Below, piece after piece: positions 11,358-40,977 of a stretch of DNA of 64,000 nt. A program made the position numbers and the translations under genes. The notes beneath the pieces were generated by a model. The model ran no database searches and was not told the DNA's origin. It worked only from the letters and a program-made list of their open reading frames with translations. The stretch's first letter is position 1. The number at the start of each line of letters is the position of its first letter. The stretch comes from an uncultured bacterium (GTDB taxonomy: Bacteria > Cyanobacteriota > Vampirovibrionia > Gastranaerophilales > Gastranaerophilaceae): NCBI GenBank assembly GCA_902801985.1, contig CADCKD010000014.1, forward strand, positions 45,525-109,524, given 5' to 3'.

Positions 11358-11453
11358 TTTTCAAAAAGTAGATGCAGAACGGGTATAATCATCCATCATC
11401 CTTTTGCTTGCATTTTTCTATTGAGGTGCTAACATAGATATATCAAATGAAAT

Positions 11454-11526
<73 letters not shown>

Positions 11527-11590
11527 TTTTTAAAATAGAAGATTGAGAACCGAATAAAGGACGAGAACCCACAAAGCGAAAGCTTTGTCT

Positions 11591-11709
11591 GGTTCGAGCG
11601 CGAGTGAGCCGAGTGCGAAGTGCCGGTGCGGATTGTGGCAACAATGCGGCAGGGCACGAAGTCACGTTTATGGCGAACGAGCAAGAGAGTCCCACCGGGT
11701 CCATTTTTA
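11591..11709 (+). repeat. Interrupted second tRNA-Lys 3' end with repeat element in the T-loop
   Basis: GGTTCGA (11591-11597), the T-arm start, is followed by an 89-bp GC-richer insert (11598-11686) and then by an exact 23-bp copy (11687-11709) of the 3' end of the tRNA-Lys gene plus its T-run (original 11510-11532). The insert begins GCGCGAGTGAGCC. Its last 27 bp (11660-11686) align with the end of the insert near tRNA-Arg (minus strand, 40579-40551), with about 4 differences and one gap. Between tRNA-Lys and this copy (11527-11590) lies a small ACAAAGC/GCTTTGT hairpin. No gene is present in 11527-11752. Confidence 0.8.
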
Positions 11710-40531: not shown

Positions 40532-40655
40532 ATTTACGCCCGAAGAGATTGTCTTGAGTCGCTCGCAATAAACGGGACTACGCATTTTGCTTTTAGTGGC
40601 AAAAAGCCACACGCAAAATCTGCTTCGCCCTCTGCTCGCTTCTCGCTCGAACTCC
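40531..40655 (-). repeat. Interrupted second tRNA-Arg 3' end with repeat element in the T-loop
   Basis: Read on the minus strand: GGAGTTCGA (40655-40647, T-arm start), a 96-bp insert (40646-40551), then AATCTCTTCGGGCGTAAATA (40550-40531), an exact 20-bp copy of the intact tRNA-Arg 3' end (40738-40719). The insert begins GCGAGAAGCGAGC and holds a nested hairpin (ATTTTGC/GCAAAAT with GTGGC/GCCAC inside, 40584-40619). Its end (40579-40551) is homologous to the end of the insert beside tRNA-Lys. Confidence 0.8.
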
Positions 40656-40694
40656 GAAACGGAGACTCTTATCATTATTCAAACATAAATAAAC

Positions 40695-40715: not shown

Positions 40716-40722
40716 ATTTATT

Positions 40723-40796
<74 letters not shown>

Positions 40797-40808
40797 ATAA
40801 ATTATTCA

Positions 40809-40814
40809 ATTATA
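40809..40814 (-). promoter_or_regulatory. -10 box of tRNA-Arg
   Basis: A perfect TATAAT on the minus strand, 12 bp before the tRNA 5' end. A clear -35 box is not seen in the repeat-derived sequence upstream. Confidence 0.45.
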
Positions 40815-40939
40815 TGTCTTGTGATAACGACTCCGCTCGGAAAACCTGCTCATCTTGCTTCCGCAAGTTGACACCGTTTTCCTCGACTCCACCTCGCGGA
40901 CCATGTCCGCTTCGGCTTGTCTCATCGCTCGCCGCAGGG

Positions 40940-40977
40940 CAGCTGAGCTACGGGCGCATATTATATTCAATTGTGTG
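40940..40977 (-). repeat. Duplicated tRNA-Arg 5' end and promoter flank, broken in the D-loop
   Basis: Read on the minus strand, GCGCCCGTAGCTCAGCTG repeats the first 18 nt of tRNA-Arg (intact copy 40796-40779). The flank upstream (TTGAATATAATAT) also resembles the intact promoter. At the D-loop it breaks into a GC-rich stretch (GGCGAGCGATGAGACAAGCC...) that runs about 120 bp to the intact promoter and contains GGAAAAC/GTTTTCC and CTTGC/GCAAG hairpins. The remainder of 40322-41076 shows no gene. Confidence 0.75.

Follow-up and report, generated by a model that had tools for sequence, protein, structure and literature searches.

What is the short, GC-rich sequence that sits in the T-loop of a partial second copy of tRNA-Lys, beside the intact gene, and how did it get there? 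An earlier note on the window (the whole stretch of DNA that was analysed, 64,000 nucleotides) had described GGTTCGA, an 89-bp insert and, behind it, the tRNA-Lys 3' end repeated exactly over 23 bp, and had read the insert either as a small non-coding mobile element tied to tRNA T-loops or as the remnant of an integrase substrate. The arrangement itself was described correctly: GGTTCGA lies at 11591-11597 and the insert at 11598-11686, the copied end is identical to that of the intact gene, and the break, TTCG^A, falls within the T-loop, at the position corresponding to 11509/11510 in the intact tRNA-Lys. The GC content of the insert is 61%, versus 33.5% for the window. The sole tRNA genes of the window, as detected by ARAGORN, are tRNA-Lys(CTT) and tRNA-Arg(ACG), and the features around both of them are listed in Table 1.

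Table 1. Features of the tRNA-Lys and tRNA-Arg loci (positions in the window)
Feature	Position	Strand	Basis
tRNA-Lys(CTT), intact	11453..11527	+	ARAGORN; Rfam tRNA, 73.9 bits
Inverted T-arm copy, GGACGAGAACCCAC	11559..11572	+	Sequence; complements the tRNA-Lys T-arm except for the central GA
Left hairpin, CAAAGC-GAAA-GCTTTG, then T5' copy, TCTGGTTCG	11572..11596	+	Sequence
Type A element body (AGCG...GCAAGAG)	11597..11687	+	Match of covariance model R1 at 11591-11693, E 9e-21; covariation
Exact 23-bp copy of the tRNA-Lys 3' end plus TTTTA	11687..11709	+	Identical to 11510-11532
tRNA-Arg(ACG), intact	40722..40797	-	ARAGORN
Left hairpin with T5' copy of the tRNA-Arg element, GATAAGAGTCTCCGTTTCGGAGTTCG	40648..40673	-	Sequence
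Type A element body, AGCGAGAAGCGAGC...GCGACTCAAGAC	40551..40647	-	R1 match at 40545-40653, E 4e-31
Exact 17-bp copy of the tRNA-Arg 3' end, AATCTCTTCGGGCGTAA	40534..40550	-	Sequence
Exact 19-bp repeat of the tRNA-Arg 5' end, TGCGCCCGTAGCTCAGCTG, lying upstream of intact tRNA-Arg	40940..40958	-	Sequence
Second GC-rich element, flanked by the 5' copy and intact tRNA-Arg	40798..40939	-	Sequence reading

The tRNA-Arg locus (40534-40673) has the same layout as the tRNA-Lys locus, and there the tRNA 5' end is duplicated as well, upstream of the gene. This 5'-end copy had been overlooked, as had the fact that the tRNA-Lys insert begins further to the left, with the inverted T-arm and hairpin at 11559-11596. 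The second tRNA-Arg element, too, has CAAGAC as its last motif, with an A after it. A covariance model built for the insert family, with a seed alignment that includes both window copies, has exactly two matches in the window, one beside each tRNA gene. Because the model matches both inserts, the similarity between them is significant and spans the whole structure; thus, the homology claimed earlier is real, although it is not confined to the last 27 bp. In Rfam 15, no credible match to the element was found, and the only window matches at the gathering score were to tRNA.

Occupied loci have a common order. After the tRNA come a trailer, which often includes a terminator, the inverted T-arm, a small hairpin and the T5' copy with TTCG at its end; the body follows, then the tRNA 3' end beginning with the A of the T-loop, and finally another trailer. 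The gene-free body is ~90-110 bp long, and the whole unit ~190-200 bp. The sequence of the inverted T-arm depends on the locus: across 41 elements from 19 tRNA types, arms agreed more closely with the tRNA of their own locus than under permutation (2/5000 permutations for H-T5, 0/5000 for rcT5 and 0/5000 for c3). Its centre is GA, whereas a true reverse complement would give TC; therefore, a tandem G.A mismatch with the T-loop would form. A first alignment of all element types together gave poor columns, and the model was built on type A alone. Type A bodies share one fold across different tRNAs and species, with short helices parted by tandem G.A mismatches, a variable terminal stem and the conserved ends AGCG...AAGAC. 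In a covariation test of a named structure on 21 type A sequences, 85% of the cells were paired (71 +/- 1 in shuffles and 33-45% with slid partners), and 62 cells were double-changed, versus 16 +/- 3 in shuffles. Two base pairs of helix P1 switch between Watson-Crick and tandem G.A, which suggests that the G.A steps function as pairs. Of the two strands, the one with GA is more stable in 21/21 type A bodies when folded as RNA and in 20/21 when folded as DNA.

The source genome is a 2.14-Mb MAG (G000), in which sequence reading covered the stretches around tRNA genes and matches. Using tRNA genes with flanks extracted from this genome and two congeners, we found the gene's own 3' end copied downstream in 38 of 127 cases (15/50, 18/41 and 5/36 in the three genomes), at a distance of 57-342 bp, and its own 5' end copied upstream in 20 of 134 (9/55, 9/42 and 2/37). 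As controls, 3' ends of another tRNA yielded 4, 1 and 0 copies in the three genomes, the 4 copies being possibly due to shared isoacceptor ends, and reversed 3' ends yielded none. In copies of types A and B, the 3'-side break falls at TTCG^A with few exceptions, the A being preceded by CAAGAC at the end of the insert. The covariance model has 12 matches with E < 1e-6 in the source genome. Eight of them are located just downstream of tRNA genes, and one is behind tmRNA (L293; the tmRNA was confirmed by ARAGORN and Rfam). Of the other three, one body lies in the T-loop of a partial copy of tRNA-Met that lacks an inverted T-arm (L287), one is on a copy of the tRNA-His 3' end well away from the gene (L291), and one is an orphan (L295). 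Strong matches are present in 41/46 congeners and in 143/192 genomes of the order (29/45 genera); a literature search found no description of such elements in Gastranaerophilales.

The tRNA-Lys locus also allows comparison of orthologous sites between congeners. The element adjoins a gene that we take to be malQ, and the named relatives that share the malQ-like neighbour are Gastranaerophilales (Candidatus Melainabacteria), a gut-dwelling group akin to the cyanobacteria. The site upstream of malQ is occupied in ~15 congeners, and in most others the tRNA runs straight into the malQ leader; L065, L072 and L109 look like partly deleted scars. Hence, occupied and unoccupied orthologous sites, as expected of a MITE-like non-autonomous element, coexist at this locus. 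It should be noted that part of the distribution may be explained by vertical inheritance or by recombination among strains.

Other element types also occur. Type B (GTTCGGCGGATTTTG...AAAATCCAAGAC) is found on the top strand at Tyr, Lys-TTT and Gly tRNAs; type B bodies at L016, L018 and L028 (GGATTTTG...CAAAATCC ends) have type A junctions on both sides and a different sequence between them. Type C also occupies T-loops, but reversed: its inverted arm has TC/TC, and in 7/7 cases the bottom strand is the more stable. Type D (ACTCTGCCG...GAGAGG) occupies D-loops of 5' copies and, reversed, the anticodon loop of a partial tRNA-Met; at L059, it is nested inside type A. In another genome (G004, L303), two copies of the insert family are located in the loop of a non-tRNA palindrome, CTTCTGGG/AGCGACC...GGTCAAGAC/AGAGGGTGCCCAAAG. 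Based on this palindrome and on the L287 site, the body is the apparent mobile unit and hairpin loops its apparent target. At tRNA-Asn (L302), a copy is flanked by an exact 85-bp direct repeat, which suggests a recent event and a local duplication of the terminator/trailer. The arrays at L308/L316 have a nearly identical 91-bp repeat and different bodies, and L320 combines a nearly identical hairpin and body with three unrelated terminators.

Several further observations were made at tRNA loci. A repeat type with the form GAGCAGAGCCA...CGACAATTATG...GGAGGTGGTGGCGTTTA is found in tandem and at tRNA-Arg(CCT) and tRNA-Ile (L299, source-genome C4:5717-6048; L050; L037). At L005, L020, L056 and other loci, an TTTTAACAGGACATTTGGTCGGAAG element lies behind several tRNA genes. 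A tRNA array at L046 (source-genome C1:50500-60500) is phage- or element-borne by appearance; for two of its tRNA genes, the tRNA model fits only if the anticodon arm is allowed an insert of ~45 nt (inserts at C1:57674-57918), which may be an intron. Contig ends lie a few to a few hundred bases from tRNA genes in G018 (C4, C5, C10, C22, C26, C27, C67, C68 and C83) and likewise in the source genome (C13, C17 and C4), as if tRNA-adjacent arrays break assemblies of these genomes.

The explanation that we favour, with chances that we put at about even, is that the insert is a short, gene-free, non-autonomous mobile element that would enter hairpin loops as folded single-stranded DNA and would be tolerated beside a duplicated tRNA end. 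Mobility, as the earlier note had proposed, is supported by related dispersed copies, occupied and unoccupied orthologous sites, the conserved fold, insertion in a palindrome loop, and arrays. Under this model, the information of the element would lie in its single-strand fold, and it would enter loops that become exposed as single strands, e.g., during replication, with cutting and joining performed by a putative enzyme supplied in trans. At tRNA genes, an outcome would survive only if an intact tRNA remained. The partial duplication could stem from a double fold-back, or template switch, at the T-arm, which is palindromic; the predicted product is tRNA, 3' end plus trailer, inverted T-arm, hairpin and second T-arm, with the element in the loop. 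Three observations speak against this explanation. No mobilising gene was found, as Y1_Tnp (PF01797), RVT_1 and IS110 are all absent from the source genome; the centre of the inverted T-arm is GA, whereas a double fold-back should have left TC there; and the L320 units with unrelated terminators are not accounted for by local duplication. A more specific role for the inverted T-arm, that of a target guide pairing with both sides of the insertion point in its own tRNA around the fixed GA core, appears quite improbable.

Because fold-back explains neither the GA centre nor the differing terminators in arrays, the main rival is an integrative cassette, which we consider possible but unlikely. In this case, the whole unit (tRNA 3' end, terminator, inverted T-arm, hairpin and body), likened to islands and integron cassettes, would recombine site-specifically into the T-loop, bringing its own tRNA 3' end, with a recombinase acting in trans. 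Such a cassette would fit the intact tRNA that is always upstream, the arrays at tRNA-Val, tRNA-His and tRNA-Gln, in which the units differ in bodies or terminators, and the 99% identity of the tRNA part of the units compared to just 74% for the trailer (the other-locus baseline is 59%). However, the base A alone is common to both sides of the crossover (AAGAC/A versus TTCG/A in nearly all type A and B copies), so no identity core of several bp spans the junctions, and conservative recombinases need an overlap longer than one base. In addition, a single family uses ~20 different tRNAs, tmRNA and a non-tRNA palindrome, related types are found in D-loops and one anticodon loop, both strands and orientations are used, and none of the ~200-bp units carries an integrase gene. 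The same junctions and the same breadth of targets leave the integrase-substrate remnant of the earlier note unsupported. Islands, phages and satellites that integrate into tRNA genes by means of tyrosine recombinases (T-loop attB class) resemble the present loci in the T-loop break, the 3' end repeated behind the insert and the intact upstream tRNA; they differ in having an integrase and a common core, in contrast to the ~100-bp body found here at ~20 tRNAs. Tyrosine integrases (Phage_integrase) are present in 4/4 genomes tested, outside the units; ordinary tRNA integration is nevertheless disfavoured because of the one-base crossover and the breadth of targets. Integron cassettes and attC sites share with the element a strand-specific folded site with mismatches, a variable tip and tandem units, but the element has no cargo gene (the "cargo" would be the tRNA end), and, by inspection, RYYYAAC and GTTRRRY boxes were not seen at the body ends, which are AGCG and AAGAC. 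In Caldiarchaeum, an archaeal tRNA gene was disrupted by a mobile element (PMC3293823); there, too, a tRNA fragment lies beside an intact tRNA, but that element is 1.8 kb long with a recombinase gene and introns, whereas the present one is gene-free and intron-less.

An improbable alternative is that the element is a functional RNA or cis element retained at tRNA ends, acting in termination, 3' processing, as a nucleoid boundary or as antisense RNA. The strong structural covariation, the adjacency to tRNA and tmRNA genes and the occurrence in many congeners are consistent with such a role. Conversely, the same gene is found with or without the element among congeners, the element sits past the terminator, body types are unrelated and occur on both strands, and copies appear to degrade into scars (L065, L072). 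It is unlikely that a transcript from the tRNA promoter is the functional form, since strand stability follows the element (the GA strand in type A, the bottom strand in type C), so that type C places the stable strand antisense to the tRNA.

That the elements are REP/REPIN-like palindromes moved by a RAYT (Y1) transposase appears very unlikely, even though REP and REPIN elements with RAYT (PMC3116915, PMC8266576) are the closest functional analogues. Both are short, non-coding, folded, dispersed and probably non-autonomous, and the present element likewise forms a palindrome in its single-strand fold. Genomes with Y1_Tnp carry more copies (8.5 versus 5.1, p 0.036, uncorrected for relatedness). 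On the other hand, the source genome has no Y1_Tnp, and a type A copy was present in only 2 of the 20 Y1 loci retrieved. Among the 10 Y1 loci read, several have their own repeats (GTAGGGTAGACT..., GTTGGGCA...) beside the gene, and cognate type A ends were not found at the RAYT genes read. RAYT-like genes at L321, L324, L326, L328 and other Y1_Tnp loci are flanked by GTAGGGTAGACT..AGTCTACC, GTTGGGCA..TGCCCAAC or GTAGGGTGCAA repeats, which are probably the REPs of those genes. The element also differs from REPs and REPINs in its length of ~107 nt, its several helices with tandem G.A, the lack of a GTAG or CGTC tag rule, and its location in tRNA loops beside duplicated tRNA ends. CGTC-tagged REPs are similar in that they have no known transposase (PMC3733652), and the right end of the element, ...GGCGAGCGAAGCAAGACAATCC, resembles the CATTGCGAGCG...GAAGCAATCC repeats of the source genome. 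A dispersed palindrome pair, CATTGCGAGCG...GAAGCAATCCAG, which resembles CGTC-type REPs, was seen at L005, L020, L056 and other loci. Thus, the element works most like a REP or MITE, without a cognate RAYT and with a different size, fold and target.

Other candidate mobilisers were rejected. Reverse transcriptase (RVT_1) is also absent from 31/46 congeners, including the copy-rich G024, and its association with copies is not significant. The IS110 DEDD transposase of bridge-RNA systems is present in 3/46 congeners. No autonomous partner with common terminal inverted repeats was found, the left end of the element being locus-specific rather than a constant inverted repeat. A phage origin was dismissed after no match was found among 50,697 phage records. 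The one IMG/VR contig found, which is filed as viral (L270, 3300027542_000775), carries tRNA-Ala with an element in what is apparently host flank and, further along, a second element with an apparent tRNA-Val 3' copy.

Least probable of all is that there is no mobile element and that replication template switching at palindromic tRNA arms created partial tandem duplications: the inverted T-arm and its locus specificity fit fold-back synthesis, but the arm centre is GA rather than the templated TC, and this process explains the tRNA duplication and not the body, since bodies of one family recur at many loci and in a non-tRNA palindrome.

If the favoured explanation of a folded, loop-entering element is correct, these sequences would be very small folded elements of a class that spans the lineage and occupies the loops of tRNAs, tmRNA and palindromes. 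If the guide role of the inverted T-arm were true, this would be a minimal, gene-free, re-addressed mobile element that chooses structured loops by base pairing. The finding would bear on why assemblies of these gut bacteria are interrupted at tRNA genes, and on the identity of the enzyme that mobilises REP-like repeats lacking a transposase, an open question in the literature (PMC3733652). The elements would remodel tRNA loci without killing the tRNA, which bears on the origin of partial, split and permuted tRNA genes.
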